From positions 1 through 12,676 of the forward strand of contig JAJYJX010000063.1 of NCBI GenBank assembly GCA_021789095.1: a stretch of DNA of 12,676 bases, in the 5' to 3' direction. Source of the DNA: a bacterium. Its GTDB lineage: Bacteria; JAMCPX01. Made by a program: the position numbers and the translations under genes. The notes below the pieces were generated by a model, which was not told where the DNA came from, searched no databases, and saw nothing but the letters and a program-made list of their open reading frames with translations. Positions within the stretch are counted from its first letter, which is position 1; each line of letters opens with the position of its first letter. This document shows, piece after piece, positions 1 through 7,860 of the stretch.

Positions 1-802
1 CTTGAAGCTCATGGGTATTTCCACGGGACTGGTGATAGGAAGCAGATTGTTTGGCGGTGTGTCCTCCATACTAAAGCTCGGCAGGGTGCTTGGTCAGGAC
101 GCATTTGCAAGCGATGCGACAGGTATTGGCATTGGCAAGGCCGTATCAAATCCAAGTGCTCTCACGGCGAAGCGCTGGGCAATGGCAGTCGATCTGCGTA
201 AGTTTAAGACAAACGAAGATTACAAAAGATGCATTGATGTATGCGATAAGATCCACAATATACCGGATATTCCGGACAAGCAGGATATTAAGTGGATATG
301 GACTGAGCTTTATGAAAACGCGTTCCCTGAGCAGCAAAACAAATACATGGAAGAAGAATTAAAAGACAAGCAGGTATTGCTGTTTTGCAACCAGTGTGAG
401 TACCCCCCGTGTGTAAGGGTGTGTCCCACAGGTGCAACATTCAAAAGAGCAGACGGGATTGTCATGATGGATTACCACAGATGTATAGGATGCAGATATT
501 GCATGGCAGGATGCCCGTACGGCTCGAGAAGTTTTAATTTCCAGGATCCAAGGCCGTTTATAAAAAACATCGACCCTGAATACCCGACAAGGACCAGGGG
601 TGTAGTGGAAAAATGCGATTTCTGCGCAGAAAGACTTGATAAAGGTATGATACCGGCGTGCGTTGAGGCGTCCAGAGGGGCCATGATCTTTGGTGACTTG
701 AGCGATCCAAACTCGGATATCAGGAAGGTCCTCAGCAACAACTTCAGCATAAGGCGGAAACCGGAGATTGGAACTCAACCAAACATTTTTTATATAATAT
801 GA
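1..802 (+). CDS. dsrO: DsrO-like periplasmic iron-sulfur subunit of the DsrMKJOP complex (5' end missing)
   Basis: Ferredoxin-like electron-transfer subunit of the membrane complex of dissimilatory sulfur metabolism, expected to face the periplasm and pair with DsrP. The reading frame is open to the left edge. The first visible residues (LKLMGIST, then a hydrophobic stretch) match the region just after the twin arginines of a Tat signal, so the TTG at base 2 is an internal Leu and the true start lies upstream. Numbering that Leu as residue 1, complete Cys motifs lie at 129/132/137/141 and 161/164/167/171. The outer motifs are incomplete: Cys77 and Cys81 remain with Phe68 and Tyr74 at the expected first two ligand positions, and Cys205/208/220 are followed by Ser224. 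The missing ligands all fall in one predicted cluster site, leaving three [4Fe-4S] sites. The C-terminal segment (FGDLSDPNSDIRKVL, RRKPEIGT) resembles DsrO as remembered from family members. The stop overlaps the ribosome site of dsrP. Other NrfC/HybA-type ferredoxins are a less likely reading. Confidence 0.88.
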   Translation, partial: LKLMGISTGLVIGSRLFGGVSSILKLGRVLGQDAFASDATGIGIGKAVSNPSALTAKRWAMAVDLRKFKTNEDYKRCIDVCDKIHNIPDIPDKQDIKWIWTELYENAFPEQQNKYMEEELKDKQVLLFCNQCEYPPCVRVCPTGATFKRADGIVMMDYHRCIGCRYCMAGCPYGSRSFNFQDPRPFIKNIDPEYPTRTRGVVEKCDFCAERLDKGMIPACVEASRGAMIFGDLSDPNSDIRKVLSNNFSIRRKPEIGTQPNIFYII

Positions 803-812
803 GGTGGCAGTC

Positions 813-1967
813 ATGATTGATAAGGCATTGTACGGAAGCAAAAAATACTGGGCATGGGTATTATTTCTGATTCTTTTTCTTGCGGTATGCTTTCATTTCT
901 ATCTCATTCAGTTCAGTGAAGGATTGAAGATTACCGGCATGAGCAGGAATGTCTCCTGGGGACTTTATATTGCACAATTCACCTACCTCGTTGGAGTTGC
1001 AGCATCTGCGGTCATGCTTGTTATTCCTTATTATCTTCATCATTATAAGGCCTTCTCCAGGATGATCATTCTCGGAGAATTCATGGCGATTGCAGCTGTT
1101 TTAATGTGCATGCTGTTCATTTTTGTTGATCTCGGTCAGCCCATAAGGGTCCTAAATGTATTACTTTATCCTCAGCTGCACTCTGTAATGTTCTGGGACA
1201 TGACGGTCTTAGCCGGATATTTAATTCTCAATTTACTTATAGGCTGGACCACACTGGAAGCAGAGCGCAAATCAGTTATGCCCCCCGGCTGGGTAAAGCC
1301 GTTGATATATCTATCTGTTGTATGGGCTATAAGTATTCATACCGTAACGGCATTTTTATACGCGGGACTTCCGGGAAGGCCCTTCTGGATGTCAGCCATT
1401 ATGGCGGCTCGTTTTCTTGCTTCGGCGTTTTGTTCCGGACCTTCAATACTTCTCTTGCTTGTTTTTCTTGTGCAGAAACTAATCAAGTATGACGTTGGTG
1501 AAGAGGCTGTAAATGCGCTTTCAAAAATTATCACGTATGCCATGAGCGCAAATGTATTCCTGCTTTTGCTTGAGGTGTTTACTGCTTTTTACAGCCAGAT
1601 ACCTGATGAAATGAACTCATTTAAATATCTTTACTACGGGATTGACGGACATGATACGCTTGTCCCGTTTATGTGGACATCGGCAGGCCTTGCAGTTGTA
1701 TCGCTGGCACTTCTTATACCTCCGTCTCTGAGAAATAATAAAAAACTGTTGCCTGTTGCATTGATTGCACTTGTTATATCTACATGGATAGACAAAGGCA
1801 TGGGCCTGATCGTGGCAGGATTTATTCCCAATCCCTTTGATAAAATAACAGAATATCTTCCTACATTCCCCGAGATAATGATCACCCTGGGTGTCTATAC
1901 AATAGGTATTTTTGTATTAACAATACTCTGGAAGGTAGCAATTTCTGTTAAAGAAAGCACGGTATAA
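813..1967 (+). CDS. dsrP: DsrP, NrfD/PsrC-family integral membrane quinone-interacting subunit
   Basis: Integral membrane subunit of the DsrMKJOP complex, of the NrfD/PsrC polysulfide-reductase family, thought to exchange electrons between the quinone pool and the iron-sulfur subunit DsrO. The protein is 384 residues, rich in hydrophobic helices (about ten membrane spans expected for the family). Segments such as GSKKYWAWVLFL, SWGLYIAQFTYLVGVAASAV and FVDLGQPIRVLNVL are characteristic of DsrP. ATG at 813 is preferred over the in-frame GTG at 804 because GAGGTGG (801-807) sits five bases before the ATG and would overlap the GTG. This ribosome site overlaps the dsrO stop (800-802), so the two genes are co-transcribed and probably translationally coupled. 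No gene of the complex follows, so dsrP closes the cluster; dsrM, K and J should lie to the left of the window. Whether the complex works in sulfate reduction or sulfur oxidation cannot be told here. Confidence 0.9.
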   Translation: MIDKALYGSKKYWAWVLFLILFLAVCFHFYLIQFSEGLKITGMSRNVSWGLYIAQFTYLVGVAASAVMLVIPYYLHHYKAFSRMIILGEFMAIAAVLMCMLFIFVDLGQPIRVLNVLLYPQLHSVMFWDMTVLAGYLILNLLIGWTTLEAERKSVMPPGWVKPLIYLSVVWAISIHTVTAFLYAGLPGRPFWMSAIMAARFLASAFCSGPSILLLLVFLVQKLIKYDVGEEAVNALSKIITYAMSANVFLLLLEVFTAFYSQIPDEMNSFKYLYYGIDGHDTLVPFMWTSAGLAVVSLALLIPPSLRNNKKLLPVALIALVISTWIDKGMGLIVAGFIPNPFDKITEYLPTFPEIMITLGVYTIGIFVLTILWKVAISVKESTV

Positions 1968-2176: not shown

Positions 2177-2989
2177 ATGTCAATTATTACAATATCAAGG
2201 GGTACCTTTAGCGGGGGAGAGAAGCTGGCAGAAAGTCTTGCGGAAAAGCTTGGCTACCGTTCGCTGAGCAGGGAAATTCTGGTAAAGGCCGCAGAAAAAT
2301 ATGGTATTTCCGAAGAAAAGCTGTACAGCGCGGTAACCAGTAAAATAAGCATGAAAGAGTGGCTGGCGATAGACATAGATCGATTCCGTTATCTCTCGTT
2401 TATACAGTCGGCTCTTTGTGAAGAGGCAAAAAAAGATAATATTATTTATCACGGACATACAGGTCATTTACTGTTGAAAGGTATTTCCCATGTGCTGAAA
2501 ATTAAAGTTACAGCCAGCATGGAACAGCGTGTTATTTTTGCCATGGAGAGAAATAAATTGACACGGGAACAGGCAATAAATTACATAGAGGCTGTAGACG
2601 GCCAGAGGGAGAAATGGACCAAGTTTCTGTACGATGTGGATTGGAATGACCTTTCATTGTATGATATTGTCATAAATCTTGAACAAATAACGATACAGGA
2701 TGCATGTGATATGATAGGTATAGCGATTCAAATGCCGGCTTTCCAAGCGGATGAGGCCTCCCGTAAGAGTATGGAAAATCTCACGATAGGCAGCAGGGTA
2801 AAAGCTGCTCTGGCGTATGATGAATCCACCAAAGATTTAAACGTAGAAGTATCTGCCGATAACGGCTCGATTACTTTAGAGGGCAAGGTAAAGAATATGG
2901 AAGACACTGATAATATAGAGAAAGTCGCAAAAAGTGTTCCTGGAATAAAAAAAGTTATATGTAATTGCCGGCCGCTTTATATTAACTAA
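2177..2989 (+). CDS. Cytidylate-kinase-like protein with C-terminal BON domain, copy 1
   Basis: A 270-residue protein with two parts. Residues 1-185 resemble the cytidylate-kinase-like family (PF13189 type): an N-terminal ITISRGTFSGG segment at the P-loop position, SREIL (31-35), the NIIYHGHTGHLLLKG segment (88-102) and FLYDVDWND (150-158). Residues about 205-264 look like a BON domain (VKAALAYD, then GSITLEGKV and a VPGIKKV ending), a fold linked to phospholipid or periplasmic interactions in other proteins. The P-loop lacks the usual GK[ST], so real kinase activity is uncertain. The protein ends in CNCRPLYIN, with Cys262 and Cys264. No signal peptide or membrane helix is visible, so it is probably cytoplasmic. 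The start is ATG 2177 with a G-rich but weak ribosome site (2163-2168). It is one of three paralogues here (also 3111 and 7036) and the most divergent at its C-terminus. Substrate and role are unknown; true CMP kinase is unlikely. Confidence 0.85.
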   Translation: MSIITISRGTFSGGEKLAESLAEKLGYRSLSREILVKAAEKYGISEEKLYSAVTSKISMKEWLAIDIDRFRYLSFIQSALCEEAKKDNIIYHGHTGHLLLKGISHVLKIKVTASMEQRVIFAMERNKLTREQAINYIEAVDGQREKWTKFLYDVDWNDLSLYDIVINLEQITIQDACDMIGIAIQMPAFQADEASRKSMENLTIGSRVKAALAYDESTKDLNVEVSADNGSITLEGKVKNMEDTDNIEKVAKSVPGIKKVICNCRPLYIN

Positions 2990-3009
2990 TTTTAAAGGAG
3001 CCCCTGCCA

Positions 3010-3123
3010 ATGCTGAATACCTCATTTGTACGAAAAAATGCCCTTGAATCCTTGAGAAAATTGAGTATAATAAAATGGTCGTGTAACGATTTTAAAAGAG
3101 GAGATGTTAAATGGCGATTATAA
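3010..3123 (+). CDS. Possible 37-residue small ORF overlapping the start of copy 2
   Basis: ATG at 3010 follows AAAGGAG (2994-3000) with a nine-base spacer and opens a 37-codon frame ending in TAA at 3121-3123, inside the first codons of the next gene. The peptide is basic (MLNTSFVRKNALESLRKL at its start) and resembles nothing I recognise. It would only be made from read-through of copy 1, because the promoter at 3044-3071 lies inside the frame. It could be a chance ORF or a coupling peptide. Confidence 0.15.
   Translation: MLNTSFVRKNALESLRKLSIIKWSCNDFKRGDVKWRL
3044..3071 (+). promoter_or_regulatory. Sigma70-type promoter for kinase-like copy 2
   Basis: TTGAAT (3044-3049) and TATAAT (3066-3071) are separated by 16 bases. 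The -10 box is perfect. Transcription would begin near 3078, giving a leader of about 33 bases that carries the ribosome site AGAGGAGA (3097-3104). This suggests that copy 2 can be expressed independently of copy 1. Confidence 0.6.
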
Positions 3124-3935
3124 CAATATCAAGGGGAACGTTCAGCGGCGGTGAGCAGCTTACCGAGTGTCTCGCGAAAAGACTCGGCTATATTCCTGTA
3201 AGCAGGGAGATTCTGCTGAAAAGTGCAGCTATCTATGGCTTAACAGAAGAAAAGTTGAAAAACGCGCTGGAAGGGAAAATAAGTTTAAAAGAGCGACTTG
3301 CTATAAATACCGACCGGTTTCGCTATCTCTCTTTTATACAGTCCTCACTGTGCGAAGAGGCAAAAAAGGATAATATCATATATTATGGTCATGCAGGTCA
3401 TTTATTGCTAAAAGGTGTTTCACACGTGCTGAAAGTAAAAATCATAGCCGGCATCGAACAAAGAATAGTTTTTGCCATGGAACGGAATAAATTAACCAAG
3501 GAACAGGCAATAAGATATATAGAAGACATAGATAAACAACGGGCAAAATGGACAAAATTTTTATATGATGTCGATTGGAATGATCCGTCTCTGTACGATT
3601 TTGTTGTTAATATTAACAAGATAACAATACCGGCCGCATGCGAGATGATAAGCGTTCTTGCTAACTCCAAGGCTTTCCAGGCGACAGAGGCTTCTATTAA
3701 AGTGATTAATAATCTTGCACTTGCAAGTAAGGTGAGGGCAGTTTTAGCTGCAAACGAACTTACCCAGAATTGCAATGTAAATGTAGTTGCAGAAGATGGC
3801 ATAGTAACGGTGAGTGGTAAGGTAGAGAGCATGGAAGATGCAGAGAATATAGAAGAATTGGTTAAGAATACAGAAGGTGTAAAAGGCATGAGCTGCCAGT
3901 GCCACCCGAACTATTTAAAAGATGTTGTATTGTAA
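3111..3935 (+). CDS. Cytidylate-kinase-like protein with C-terminal BON domain, copy 2
   Basis: A 274-residue paralogue of the upstream gene, colinear with it and with the third copy without any gap through residue 264. The kinase-like part shows ITISRGTFSGG at the P-loop position (no Walker A lysine), SREIL (31-35), NIIYYGHAGHLLLKG (88-102) and FLYDVDWNDPSLYD (150-163). The BON-like part spans roughly 205-264 (VRAVLAAN, GIVTVSGKV, EGVKGM) and ends in SCQCHPNYLKD with Cys262 and Cys264. In copies 2 and 3 the tail is longer (LKDxVL) than in copy 1. The ATG at 3111 has a good ribosome site (AGAGGAGA, 3097-3104) and its own promoter. Its stop faces the minus-strand DUF1634 gene across 34 bases. 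The protein is probably cytoplasmic and nucleotide-binding; catalytic function is not established. Confidence 0.85.
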   Translation: MAIITISRGTFSGGEQLTECLAKRLGYIPVSREILLKSAAIYGLTEEKLKNALEGKISLKERLAINTDRFRYLSFIQSSLCEEAKKDNIIYYGHAGHLLLKGVSHVLKVKIIAGIEQRIVFAMERNKLTKEQAIRYIEDIDKQRAKWTKFLYDVDWNDPSLYDFVVNINKITIPAACEMISVLANSKAFQATEASIKVINNLALASKVRAVLAANELTQNCNVNVVAEDGIVTVSGKVESMEDAENIEELVKNTEGVKGMSCQCHPNYLKDVVL

Positions 3936-3953
3936 TTTACTAACGGGGTTTAC
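3936..3953. repeat. Solo end of the dispersed repeat found at 7912-7988
   Basis: CTAACGGGGTTTAC at 3940-3953 is identical to 7976-7989, one terminal arm of the small MITE-like element further right. Here TTTA (3936-3939 and 3949-3952) flanks CTAACGGGG directly, and no second arm is seen. It may be a deletion relic or a single-arm version of the element. Confidence 0.45.
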
Positions 3954-3969
3954 CAGGAACTGGTATATT
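3951..3969. terminator. Candidate terminator hairpin between convergent genes
   Basis: TACCAG (3951-3956), loop GAA, CTGGTA (3960-3965) form a perfect six-pair hairpin followed by TATTTTAG on the + strand. It sits in the 34-base gap between the convergent copy 2 and DUF1634 genes, where a terminator serving one or both strands is expected. The stem is short, so it would be weak. Confidence 0.4.
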
Positions 3970-4506
3970 TTAGTGTATAAGCAGGCTAATACCCAGGATC
4001 ACCAGCACGAATAATGTGATTGTCCCGTATTTCCAGTTTTTGTTTACTATGGCCATATAGATACCGGTAACTAAAACCTGCACCATCGGCGTTATTAGCA
4101 AAATCATGAGTCCTGCATTTAATAAAATCTCTGTTCTAAAATGCCCAAGGCTTATAAGTCCCAGTTCTTTCTCTGTGAACAGATAAAAGTTTTTATAAAA
4201 CATGTTGTAATCGACATTAAGGCTCTGGTGCCTTATATAAAACCGTAATAATCCGGCGACGAAAAACAGAAAGGTCAACCACACACCCGTCCTGTATATT
4301 ATTGATATTACATCTTCAAGACTTGCAATCTTTCTTCCGACAGACAAGGGGATCCTTTTTTGAAGCGTAATAATTGCCTGCTGATGCTTTTTTATCTCTT
4401 CATTTAGCTTTGCAATTGCATCTTTATGATATTTAATATCTTCAGATGTCGGTTCCCCGCACGGACTGGAAGATTGGGATATATTCTTGAAGTTATCCTC
4501 AGACAT
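3970..4506 (-). CDS. DUF1634-type membrane protein, partner of the TauE/SafE permease
   Basis: A 178-residue protein with a soluble N-terminus of about 70 residues, including a charged helix likely to form a coiled coil (roughly 24-52, DIKYHKDAIAKLNEEIKK), then three probable membrane helices (about 74-91, 126-153, 161-177). The last two, with GLMILLITPMVQVL and the following helix, match the DUF1634 pattern, a family commonly encoded beside TauE/SafE permeases. Its ATG overlaps the permease stop as TAATG, with GGAGAGG six bases before the ATG lying inside the permease gene, so translation is coupled. It is probably an accessory subunit of the exporter; no enzymatic residues are evident. The N-terminal coiled-coil extension is longer than the core domain requires and may mediate oligomerisation (inference). 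Confidence 0.8.
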   Translation of the reverse strand: MSEDNFKNISQSSSPCGEPTSEDIKYHKDAIAKLNEEIKKHQQAIITLQKRIPLSVGRKIASLEDVISIIYRTGVWLTFLFFVAGLLRFYIRHQSLNVDYNMFYKNFYLFTEKELGLISLGHFRTEILLNAGLMILLITPMVQVLVTGIYMAIVNKNWKYGTITLFVLVILGISLLIH

Positions 4507-5321
4507 TATATGCCTCTCCAGATCATCTCAAGGGAGATTACCAGCAGAATTACAAGGAACAATCTCCTCACAGCCTCTTCTACCATCCTTACCAGCAGTT
4601 TTGAGCCTATCCAGGAGCCCAGCAAAACGCCCAGTATTATTGGAACTGCAAGACCTGGTTTCAAATACCCTGATGCAAAAAATACACTTGAGCCTGCCAG
4701 CGCTGTAATACCGATTATATAGTTACTTGTTGTTGTTGAAACTTTTGGAGGTAATCCCATAAGTAGATCCAGTATAAGGACCTTTAAGGCGCCGGCACCG
4801 ATACCAAGGAGTCCGGCAACCACACCTGCCATAAACATAAAAGGTCCTCCCAGAATGGCGTACCTGCTCTTATAATTTACTACCCTGAAAGGCGGGACCT
4901 TCTCCTCATAGCAGCCGTTTAACTCCAGATAGTTATCAACAAATCCACCTTTATTATCATAACGGGCAACGTTTACCCCCTTTTTAAGAAGGGTTATCCA
5001 TGAGCTTAACAATATAAGACCAAACATAAGGGATAGGGGCTTCTCACTCATTTTTAATGTTATAGTGGCACCAGCAATTGCACCAAGGATTGTAAAGAGC
5101 TGAAGGAAAGTACCTATTTTTAGATTGACGATCTTTTCTTTTGCGTATGCTGCTGTAGCAGAACAAGAAGTCGCAATGACCGATAGCATACTTGCAGCGA
5201 TCGCATATTTTATATTAATACCAAGCAGTACAAGGGCAGGAACAATTATAATGCCTCCGCCCATGCCGCTCAAAGCACCGATAAATCCTGCAAATAACGA
5301 GATTAAAAATATTAAAGTCAT
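4506..5321 (-). CDS. TauE/SafE-family sulfite/anion exporter
   Basis: A 271-residue polytopic inner-membrane permease of the TauE/SafE family, whose members move sulfite, sulfoacetate or related organosulfur anions. The two family repeats are visible: GFIGALSGMGGG (12-23) with IIIVPAL, and GVVAGLLGIGAGALKV (166-181). A hydrophilic central loop (about 113-157) separates the halves. Length is typical. It is first in a two-gene minus-strand operon with the DUF1634 protein. Close to a dsr complex, export of sulfite or another sulfur anion is a reasonable inference, but the substrate cannot be read from sequence. No Shine-Dalgarno sequence precedes the ATG at 5321; a strong promoter sits so close that the mRNA would have only a few leader bases. 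Confidence 0.88.
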   Translation of the reverse strand: MTLIFLISLFAGFIGALSGMGGGIIIVPALVLLGINIKYAIAASMLSVIATSCSATAAYAKEKIVNLKIGTFLQLFTILGAIAGATITLKMSEKPLSLMFGLILLSSWITLLKKGVNVARYDNKGGFVDNYLELNGCYEEKVPPFRVVNYKSRYAILGGPFMFMAGVVAGLLGIGAGALKVLILDLLMGLPPKVSTTTSNYIIGITALAGSSVFFASGYLKPGLAVPIILGVLLGSWIGSKLLVRMVEEAVRRLFLVILLVISLEMIWRGI

Positions 5322-5331
5322 AATTTAAAAT

Positions 5332-5360
5332 ATTGTATGTTGTATACAAAAATATGTCAA
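5332..5360 (-). promoter_or_regulatory. Near-consensus sigma70 promoter of the TauE/SafE operon
   Basis: Read on the minus strand: TTGACA (5360-5355), a 17-base spacer, then TACAAT (5337-5332). This is a perfect -35, a good -10 and ideal spacing. Initiation would fall at about 5324-5326, only three to five bases before the ATG at 5321, so the transcript would be leaderless or nearly so, in agreement with the missing ribosome site. Confidence 0.7.
5340..5349. promoter_or_regulatory. Palindrome in the promoter spacer, possible operator
   Basis: TTGTATACAA is a perfect 10-base palindrome lying between the -35 and -10 boxes of the TauE/SafE promoter. A protein bound here would block RNA polymerase. 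The preceding bases make a tandem TTGTATG/TTGTATA. No particular regulator is identified. Confidence 0.4.
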
Positions 5361-5394
5361 TCTAATTTTTTATTGAGGTATTAAGTCACTTCTA

Positions 5395-5408
5395 TTGATT
5401 TTTATCAA
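5395..5408. promoter_or_regulatory. FNR/CRP-family binding box
   Basis: TTGATTTTTATCAA matches TTGAT-N4-ATCAA, the consensus of FNR-type regulators of the CRP/FNR family, at every defined position. It lies between the divergent TauE/SafE and CLC genes, centred roughly 77 bases upstream of the inferred TauE start point and about 200 bases upstream of the CLC start codon. A + strand TATAAA (5416-5421) lies 15 bases after TTGATT (5395-5400), so the box may overlap a rightward promoter. Oxygen- or redox-linked control is inferred. Confidence 0.55.
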
Positions 5409-5600
5409 ATCTAAGTATAAAACGTTCAAAAAGTCCCCATGAGAAATTCAGCTTTTCCCTGGCTTGTAGTTGCAGTAGAAAGAGAAATAAGTATTATGGG
5501 TAGCTCAGGATAAGCCTTGACGGCAATTATTGATAGAGTATTAGAGCAATGCCGCGGTGATGTTTAAATAGGCATTGTATGCATATATATATTTACGATT

Positions 5601-6950
5601 ATGATAAATAAATTAAAATCGTGGTATTATCAAATAATAACAGGTACAATAAGAGATATTGTTCTTGCTGTGCTTATAGGGGTTCTGGCAGGGCTGTCCA
5701 GTTCCTTTATTATAAAATCCGAAAGCTTAATAGAGGGTTTTCTTTATTCTACACATGTACAGGAACTGAGTTTAGAACAGATATTCAAATTGAGGAATCT
5801 TATAATTCTGTTCCTTCCTTTAACCGGTGCGATTTTTTATATTATTATAAAACCGGTTTTCTTTAAAGACCAACGGATGGGCTACAGCTTCCCGGATTTC
5901 ATAGTGAACGTTAACAGAAGAGAGGCAAGAATCAATCCCCAAAGCATCCTTTATCTTTTATTGTTTACGCCTATCATTATTGGAACAGGTAATATGGCTG
6001 GTGTCGAAGGCCCGATTGCGCAGATAGGGGGTGGATTTGGTTCGTTCATGTCAGGGATAATGAAGGAGGAAAACAGAAAAAGAAGGAAGCTCCTTATAGC
6101 AAGCGGTACCGCGGCCGGCATTGCATCAATATTCAATGCGCCCATCACGGGTGTATTCTTTGCCATAGAGATCGTCCTTCTCGGTGAATATGAACTGACG
6201 TCAATAAGTGTAATTGTTATATCTGCTGTAGCCGGAACTCTTGTTGCCAGGGCGTTTATAGGAAATCATCCCATGCTTGGTACACCGCTGTATGAATATG
6301 CCGGGGTACATGATTTTATCGGCTATACGTTTTTAGGGTTGTTTGTCGGGGTTTTTTCAGTGTTGTTTGAAAAATGGTTTTTTAAGGCAGCAGATTATTT
6401 CAAAGAAATGAAAGTAAAAACCTTAACAAAGCCGCTGATAGGCAGTATTATTATCGGGTTTATAGGTGTTTTTCTGCCCATGTCTCTTGGTAACGGCTAC
6501 CCTGTGATAAAACTGGCTCTTCTCGGTAAACTTGGTTTTTCGCTGATTGTATTTTTATTTATTGCCAAATTTATAGGTACGGCAATAACTATCGGGTCAG
6601 GTTTACCCGGCGGCATTTATGCACCGTCACTTTATACTGGTGCTATGATCGGCGGGACAATCGGTTATATATTTAAGTTCCTGTTTCCTGCCCAGCCTGT
6701 ATCAACAGGTGTGTATGCCATACTGGGCATGTCGGCATTCCTCGCATCACTTACCCATGCACCTTTCACAGGGATATTTCTTGTGTTCGAACTTACAAAC
6801 GATTACAGAATGATGCTCCCCTTTATGATTACAACCGTTATCGCCATGCTTATAAAGGCAAAGCTTTTTCCCGATTCAATTGAGCATTATCCGATAAGGG
6901 AATACATAAAACATATTGAACAGAAGACGGAAAACAACACCGGAACATAA
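5601..6950 (+). CDS. CLC-family chloride channel or anion/proton antiporter
   Basis: A 449-residue polytopic CLC protein without C-terminal CBS domains. Family motifs are clear: GVEGP (134-138) with the external gating glutamate Glu136, SIFNAPITGVFFAIE (176-190), and GSGLPGGIYAPS (332-343). Judged against E. coli ClC-ec1 from memory, the selectivity motif GSGIP reads GYSFP (94-98), the internal proton glutamate position E203 is Ile191, and the C-terminal anion-contacting Tyr position appears to be Glu428 with His429 and Tyr430 next to it. Anion preference and proton coupling are therefore uncertain. The ATG at 5601 has no visible Shine-Dalgarno, but the first helix (INKLKSWYYQIITGTIRDI) begins as expected. 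It is divergent from the TauE/SafE operon and directly precedes the third kinase-like gene, 85 bases away. Fluoride-type CLC is not supported, since its signature motifs are absent. Confidence 0.9.
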   Translation: MINKLKSWYYQIITGTIRDIVLAVLIGVLAGLSSSFIIKSESLIEGFLYSTHVQELSLEQIFKLRNLIILFLPLTGAIFYIIIKPVFFKDQRMGYSFPDFIVNVNRREARINPQSILYLLLFTPIIIGTGNMAGVEGPIAQIGGGFGSFMSGIMKEENRKRRKLLIASGTAAGIASIFNAPITGVFFAIEIVLLGEYELTSISVIVISAVAGTLVARAFIGNHPMLGTPLYEYAGVHDFIGYTFLGLFVGVFSVLFEKWFFKAADYFKEMKVKTLTKPLIGSIIIGFIGVFLPMSLGNGYPVIKLALLGKLGFSLIVFLFIAKFIGTAITIGSGLPGGIYAPSLYTGAMIGGTIGYIFKFLFPAQPVSTGVYAILGMSAFLASLTHAPFTGIFLVFELTNDYRMMLPFMITTVIAMLIKAKLFPDSIEHYPIREYIKHIEQKTENNTGT

Positions 6951-6981
6951 AGACGGGTAAATGCAAATAAATTTAAAACTA

Positions 6982-7010
6982 TTGCCATAGAAGCAATGGT
7001 TTGTTAAAGT
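6982..7010 (+). promoter_or_regulatory. Candidate promoter for kinase-like copy 3
   Basis: TTGCCA (6982-6987) and TAAAGT (7005-7010) are separated by 17 bases in the short gap after the CLC gene. Start would be near 7016, leaving a leader of about 20 bases with AAGGAGGT. Both boxes are imperfect, so read-through from the CLC gene is the alternative. Confidence 0.35.
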
Positions 7011-7035
7011 GCAAAATATACAAGGAGGTACACCT

Positions 7036-7860
7036 ATGGCCATTATTACAATATCAAGGGGAACGTTCAGCGGCGGGGAGAAACTCGCCGAATGTCTGAA
7101 TCAAAGGATCGGTTACCGTACAATAAGCAGGGAGGTCATACTGCATGCAGCGTCAGAATACGGCGTGTCCGAGGAAAGATTGATCAAGGCAATAGAGCAG
7201 AAGCCGAGCATCAAGGAACGGCTTGCATTAGACGTTGACAGGTTTCATTATTTATCGTTCATACAAGCGGCACTGTGCGAGGAGGCGAAGAACGATAATA
7301 TTATTTATCATGGGCATGCGGGACATTTATTATTAAAGGGCGTATCCCACGTGATCAAGGTAAAGGTAATCGCGGATATGGAGCAGCGCATAGTATTTGC
7401 AATGGACAGAAATAAGCTGTCGCGTGAAGATGCCATAGGGTATATCAAAAAGGTTGATGAACAAAGAGAGAAATGGGCAAGGTTCCTTTACGATGTGGAC
7501 TGGAATGACCCATACCTGTACGATATCGTTATAAATCTCAAAAAGATGACAATACCTACGGCATGTGAAATTATAAGCATCATGGTGAAAGCGGATGAGT
7601 TTAAAACCACGGATTCTTCACGCATGGCTATGGGAAATCTTGTACTGGCAAGCCGTGTCAAGGCAGTGCTTGCATCCAGCGATGCAACAAAGAATTTCAG
7701 TCTGGAGGTGATTGCTGATAACGGTATTGTAACAGTGAGCGGGAAGGTGGATACAATGGAAGATGTTGAGAACATATCAGAGCTTGTTAAGAATATAAAA
7801 GATGTTAAAGGTGTAAGTTGCAAATGCCATCCACACTATTTAAAGGATGCGGTATTGTAA
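7036..7860 (+). CDS. Cytidylate-kinase-like protein with C-terminal BON domain, copy 3
   Basis: A 274-residue paralogue of the genes at 2177 and 3111. ATG 7036 is chosen over the upstream GTG at 7009 because AAGGAGGT (7022-7029) lies six bases before it and because it makes the N-terminus (MAIITISRGTFSGG) identical to copy 2. The kinase-like part contains SREVIL (31-36), NIIYHGHAGHLLLKG (88-102) and FLYDVDWNDPYLYD (150-163). The BON-like part covers about 205-264 and ends in SCKCHPHYLKD with Cys262 and Cys264. As in the other copies the P-loop position lacks the Walker A lysine. It has the strongest ribosome site of the three. It stands alone between CLC and a gap containing a MITE-like repeat, rather than in tandem with the first two, which suggests dispersal or insertion of the exporter/CLC block between copies (inference). 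Substrate unknown. Confidence 0.85.
   Translation: MAIITISRGTFSGGEKLAECLNQRIGYRTISREVILHAASEYGVSEERLIKAIEQKPSIKERLALDVDRFHYLSFIQAALCEEAKNDNIIYHGHAGHLLLKGVSHVIKVKVIADMEQRIVFAMDRNKLSREDAIGYIKKVDEQREKWARFLYDVDWNDPYLYDIVINLKKMTIPTACEIISIMVKADEFKTTDSSRMAMGNLVLASRVKAVLASSDATKNFSLEVIADNGIVTVSGKVDTMEDVENISELVKNIKDVKGVSCKCHPHYLKDAVL

Follow-up and report, generated by a model that had tools for sequence, protein, structure and literature searches.

Gene layout of the window

The stretch of DNA analysed here, called the window, is the whole of contig C197 (12,676 nucleotides), which begins inside dsrO and belongs to a draft genome of 2.15 Mb that is 92% complete. Three of its genes encode proteins joining a kinase-like part to a BON part, and these are called kinBON in the following. 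The features that the argument needs are:

2-802, forward strand: dsrO, its 5' end lost at the contig edge (NCBIfam NF045797 DsrO, 294.6 bits, cut-off 200)
804-1967, forward strand: dsrP (NF045798 DsrP, 472.4 bits, cut-off 350)
2177-2989, forward strand: kinBON copy 1, 270 aa (PF13189 1.4e-38, PF04972 8.9e-12); kinase-like part 2183-2683, BON part about 2786-2962
3111-3935, forward strand: kinBON copy 2, 274 aa, in tandem with copy 1 (PF13189 3.8e-35, PF04972 4.3e-12); kinase-like part 3117-3617, BON part about 3717-3884
3951-3965, forward strand: terminator-like hairpin between copy 2 and the convergent DUF1634 gene, in a region where the number of terminator-like sites does not exceed the shuffled expectation
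3970-4506, reverse strand: DUF1634 membrane protein (PF07843 7e-13)
4506-5321, reverse strand: TauE/SafE (TSUP family) transporter (PF01925 6.7e-50, 170.4 bits against a cut-off of 32.6)
5601-6950, forward strand: CLC-type chloride channel or exchanger, upstream of copy 3 (PF00654 1.8e-85)
7036-7860, forward strand: kinBON copy 3, 274 aa (PF13189 3.4e-37, PF04972 2.5e-10); kinase-like part 7042-7542, BON part about 7645-7818

The profile matches bear out the layout of the original prediction, with dsrOP followed by the tandem copies 1 and 2, the TauE-DUF1634 pair, CLC and copy 3. After this region come genes for an ADP-forming acyl-CoA synthetase, YceG and a probable aminopeptidase-type protein. 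Copy 3 has an alternative GTG start upstream at 7009, but the ATG at 7036 has an AAGGAGG ribosome site in front of it. The gap of 209 bp that separates dsrP from copy 1 showed no terminator-like site in a scan. A structured RNA or attenuator in this gap was considered and rejected, as the fold was no better than that of shuffled sequences (z -0.57), and an Rfam search of the whole window gave no match. A promoter-like site lies between copies 1 and 2 (3044-3071). Just upstream of the TauE gene, at 5360-5332, there is a near-consensus sigma-70-type site (TTGACA-17-TACAAT, 11/12), which suggests that this gene has its own promoter.

Domains, fold and active-site motifs

The three proteins are 270-274 aa long, with PF13189 (Cytidylate_kin2) at residues 3-169 and BON (PF04972) at about 203-262. 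Both domains scored above their cut-offs in every copy (122-133 bits against 28 for PF13189, and 40.9-46.6 bits against a gathering cut-off of 27 for BON), and such strong matches in three of three proteins are not due to chance. The predicted joining of a kinase-like and a BON part in three ORFs is therefore real. That the three are colinear paralogues was also borne out, copy 1 being 60% and copy 2 65% identical to copy 3 with no internal gaps until the last few residues. A fourth copy lies elsewhere in the genome (C97:88-906, 60% identity). A hydropathy scan found no transmembrane-like segment in copies 1-3, which makes a cytosolic location probable.

The AlphaFold2 model of copy 3 had a mean pLDDT of 85.9 and a pTM of 0.84. 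Compared with the PDB, the kinase part of the model matched two structures of the PF13189 family, 3HDT (Z 19.1 over 164 residues) and 3FDI (Z 18.0 over 159 residues), while the next-best match had Z 12.8 and CMP, dephospho-CoA, shikimate and APS kinases were found at Z 11-13. For the BON part, OsmY was the BON relative in the PDB by sequence. The BON domain (PF04972) is shared with OsmY, DolP and Kbp, of which the first two reside in the envelope and carry a pair of BON domains each, whereas Kbp joins BON to LysM. The published survey of BON architectures lists no kinase-BON class (PMC7806268).

A housekeeping CMP kinase role, which the original prediction had disfavoured, was rejected: a canonical cmk is present on another contig of the same genome (C31, 215 bits, cut-off 135.6), and the kinBON motifs differ. 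Bacterial CMP kinase (cmk, TIGR00017) has a related P-loop NMP-kinase fold, but kinBON falls far under the CMP kinase cut-offs (34-50 bits with profile TIGR02173 against 102.1). The Walker A motif GxxxxGK[ST] is absent, and inspection of the sequences in an ungapped reading against CMP kinase places a Gly at the position of the lysine. This missing lysine is no proof of lost catalysis, because PF13189 proteins in general are without it.

The differences from other PF13189 proteins are more specific. In kinBON the P-loop is changed to RG[TS]FSGG and YHGxAGH replaces VGRGG, whereas most other PF13189 proteins of the same genomes have GSGG or GAGG together with VGRGG. The GR of VGRGG has become G[HNL], so that R94 is kept in only 4 of 54 homologues, and H97 is new (50/54). 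In contrast, R118, D141 and Y162 are invariant in all 54 and R144 is found in 47, the LID-type D141 and R144 thus remaining in place. With the PF13189 family kinBON shares the profile match across the N-terminal part, the common fold, R118, D141 and the YD motif; it differs in the two changed motifs, the C-terminal BON domain, its separate clade and its linkage to TauE and dsr. On these sequence comparisons kinBON is a divergent branch of the PF13189 superfamily and not a typical member. The pattern of kept and changed residues suggests that a ligand site of some kind is under selection, and it makes ordinary phosphotransfer doubtful.

Homologues and their gene neighbourhoods

Homologues were collected by a single-protein search and then an alignment-based search, and were thus picked by similarity to the window proteins and not by neighbourhood; the phylum-level searches around G265 and around G031 covered 3 genomes each. 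PF13189 was matched in all 54 sampled homologues and BON in 42 of them at E 0.01 or better, which extends the domain support for the BON part beyond the window. In a quick maximum-likelihood tree kinBON forms one clade (support 96-97) apart from the GSGG-type PF13189 proteins. Some homologues carry additional parts: a receiver domain is fused in 4/54 (L060 and relatives), and a form of about 500 aa that adjoins TauE has two C-terminal hydrophobic helices. Copies of 219-256 aa, apparently without BON, occur in the window's family (L049, L050, L053, L054), and therefore kinase-like proteins without BON are also spread in this family. In addition, two PF13189 proteins of the GSGG type, less closely related and about 277 aa long (L114:889-2229, L115:2491-3813), lie directly before a CitMHS_2-type transporter, and the linkage to transporters may thus extend beyond kinBON. 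In the open-access papers that were searched we found no functional description of kinBON; nor did a cytidylate kinase-like protein appear there together with TauE, or the cytidylate kinase-like family with a BON domain. For TIGR02186, PF13189 and Cytidylate_kin2 the DolP paper (PMC7806268) was the only one found among them.

The presence of kinBON follows that of dsrP. DsrP (NF045798) was detected in 33/36 genomes of the kinBON clade against 11/94 kinBON-negative genomes (Fisher p about 5e-18, with no phylogenetic correction), and within the phylum of G232 in 14/15 kinBON genomes against 6/46 negative ones (p about 2e-8, likewise uncorrected for phylogeny). The pattern is also kept within the window's own family, where kinBON and dsrP are both missing from G002 and G003. 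Exceptions occur in both directions, as 11 sampled genomes have dsrP but no kinBON, and three have kinBON but no dsrP: G621, which is complete, G008, which is 80% complete, and the MAG G633, whose kinBON contig is, judged from its position in the tree, probably misbinned.

The genes themselves are seldom next to dsr, direct adjacency being seen for 5 of 86 kinBON genes. Outside the window's family, the genes for DsrM, DsrK, DsrO and DsrP are followed by kinBON in L151, and kinBON is followed by ATP sulfurylase (sat), dsrP and dsrO in L144 and L146. In L098, HdrA-like and Fe-S genes, sat and two kinBON genes lie together. It has to be considered whether kinBON, instead of sensing, helps to assemble or scaffold membrane complexes such as DsrMKJOP and TSUP transporters. 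The position beside membrane-protein genes and the membrane anchoring of some homologues would fit this, as would the binding of phospholipid by the BON domains of DolP (PMC7806268). However, the rarity of dsr adjacency speaks against it and the receiver fusions and two-component neighbours indicate signalling, and we regard an assembly factor as improbable.

The most frequent partner of kinBON is TauE. Neighbours were surveyed with a six-frame scan and custom profiles built from Pfam-annotated neighbours. Within 5 kb of TauE were 42 of 75 kinBON genes, against 1.3 expected from the TauE number and genome size (30 genomes, 132 TauE genes), a count in which loci of one family are not independent of each other. 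The pairs were drawn from 11 of 16 families. None of 200,000 simulation runs exceeded 9, and none of the 21 other PF13189 or cmk genes in those genomes was within 5 kb of TauE. Random placement, which would have spoken against the original prediction, is thereby excluded. The other 33 of the 75 were not near TauE, some of them owing to the contig ends of draft genomes, which hide neighbours. In the larger count TauE was within 5 kb of 53/86 in-clade genes. In 23 cases kinBON immediately precedes a TauE gene of the same orientation, the distance being usually shorter than 100 bp, and the partner TauE proteins come from at least three sequence clusters.

Recurrence of the neighbourhood, for which the original prediction had proposed a survey, was seen in part: adjacency to dsrOP and to TauE returns in other families, together with the co-occurrence with dsrP, but adjacency to CLC was seen only in the window's own family, and CLC was accordingly rejected as a general partner of kinBON. 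Alternatively, the three copies could have arisen by expansion within one lineage and have no particular connection with the genes around them. The window copies do fall into a clade of 18 rows (support 99) that consists of the window's own family and one contig of a Bacteroidetes-labelled MAG, but the links to TauE and dsrP are found in other families and phyla as well, far more often than expected, so that this reading is largely refuted and very improbable. The kinBON gene of that MAG (L040:1721-2542) lies on a 7.7 kb contig, in a genome without a DsrP match, and the contig is probably misbinned.

Other neighbours within 5 kb of the 86 in-clade genes were response regulators (28), PPDK_N/PEP-utiliser proteins (27), TIGR02186/Alph_Pro_TM membrane proteins (22), histidine kinases (21) and DUF1634 (9). 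A DHA2-type MFS transporter also recurs near kinBON (L044:977-2485, L046, L052, L057, L098, L133, L136, L144, L145); it is EmrB-like in L098 and is found beside the fourth copy of the window's genome as well. Several loci (L058:4439-7045, L100:4171-6813, L098:12622-15210 and others) encode, beside TauE and kinBON, proteins some 850 aa long in which PPDK_N and PEP-utiliser domains are the only Pfam matches, and these may be a second, unstudied partner of the kinBON-TauE module.

The frequent PPDK_N/PEP-utiliser neighbour could point to kinBON being an active small-molecule kinase of sulfur metabolism, acting on a nucleotide or a sulfur metabolite, while BON would serve for docking. The predicted model keeps the whole NMP-kinase fold, and the conservation of R118, D141 and, in most homologues, R144 would agree with catalysis. 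On the other hand, kinBON has neither the lysine of Walker A nor the arginine of the NMP site, and for a family with receiver fusions and with several copies in a genome, signalling is a better fit than a single enzymatic step. We therefore consider an active kinase unlikely. The two-component genes raise the further alternative that kinBON is an output or phosphate-relay partner in a two-component sulfur-response module, of which TauE would be one regulated target. Although the response regulators and histidine kinases near kinBON and the fusions of the kinase-like part to a receiver are in line with this, TauE is the commoner neighbour and neither a histidine kinase nor a response regulator gene lies beside kinBON within the window, and such a role appears quite improbable.

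A putative regulator of sulfur-compound transport

The reading that we tentatively favour, at somewhat less than even confidence, is that kinBON is a regulator of sulfur-compound transport in Dsr bacteria, in which a degenerate kinase acts as a ligand sensor and BON serves for docking. The protein would be cytosolic, with a fold derived from NMP kinases and ordinary phosphotransfer probably lost. Its kinase-like part would bind a ligand in the cytosol, for which adenine nucleotides, sulfo-nucleotides and sulfur oxyanions are the most plausible candidates, and the C-terminal BON domain would probably attach the protein to the membrane or to a partner. In turn, kinBON would adjust the TSUP (TauE/SafE) transporter, and in many lineages it may signal onward to the histidine kinase and response regulator encoded nearby. 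Of the three copies in the window, the first two lie between dsrOP and the DUF1634-TauE genes, and the third comes after CLC. The sensory or regulatory role suggested in the original prediction gains support from the receiver fusions and the two-component neighbours, although its sensory part stays conjectural.

A degenerate kinase with an allosteric nucleotide-sensing function in sulfur assimilation is known from the APS-kinase-like domain of fungal ATP sulfurylase. This regulatory domain (1M8P) resembles kinBON in its kinase-type fold (Z 11.0), but the match is no better than that to many NMP kinases, and binding of PAPS or APS by kinBON is unsupported. It is possible, though we hold this with less confidence than the role itself, that kinBON represents an unrecognised Dsr-associated family in which a former nucleotide kinase works as a cytosolic sensor of the sulfur or energy state and gates TSUP-type sulfite/sulfate transporters.

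Sulfate and sulfite reducers have many TSUP transporters, the substrates and control of which are unknown, and a comparative study of their sulfate transporters (PMC5840216) states that it was not feasible to predict what TSUP proteins do. As kinBON is found almost only in dsrP-bearing genomes and is repeatedly paired with TSUP, it gives a handle on TSUP function and flags those TSUP genes with a likely part in dissimilatory sulfur metabolism. Through kinBON, a connection of the Dsr pathway with anion transport and signalling also becomes testable. In case the proposed role is true, kinBON would be a missing layer of control between dissimilatory sulfite reduction and sulfur-oxyanion transport, and would also show that the NMP-kinase fold has been turned to regulation.
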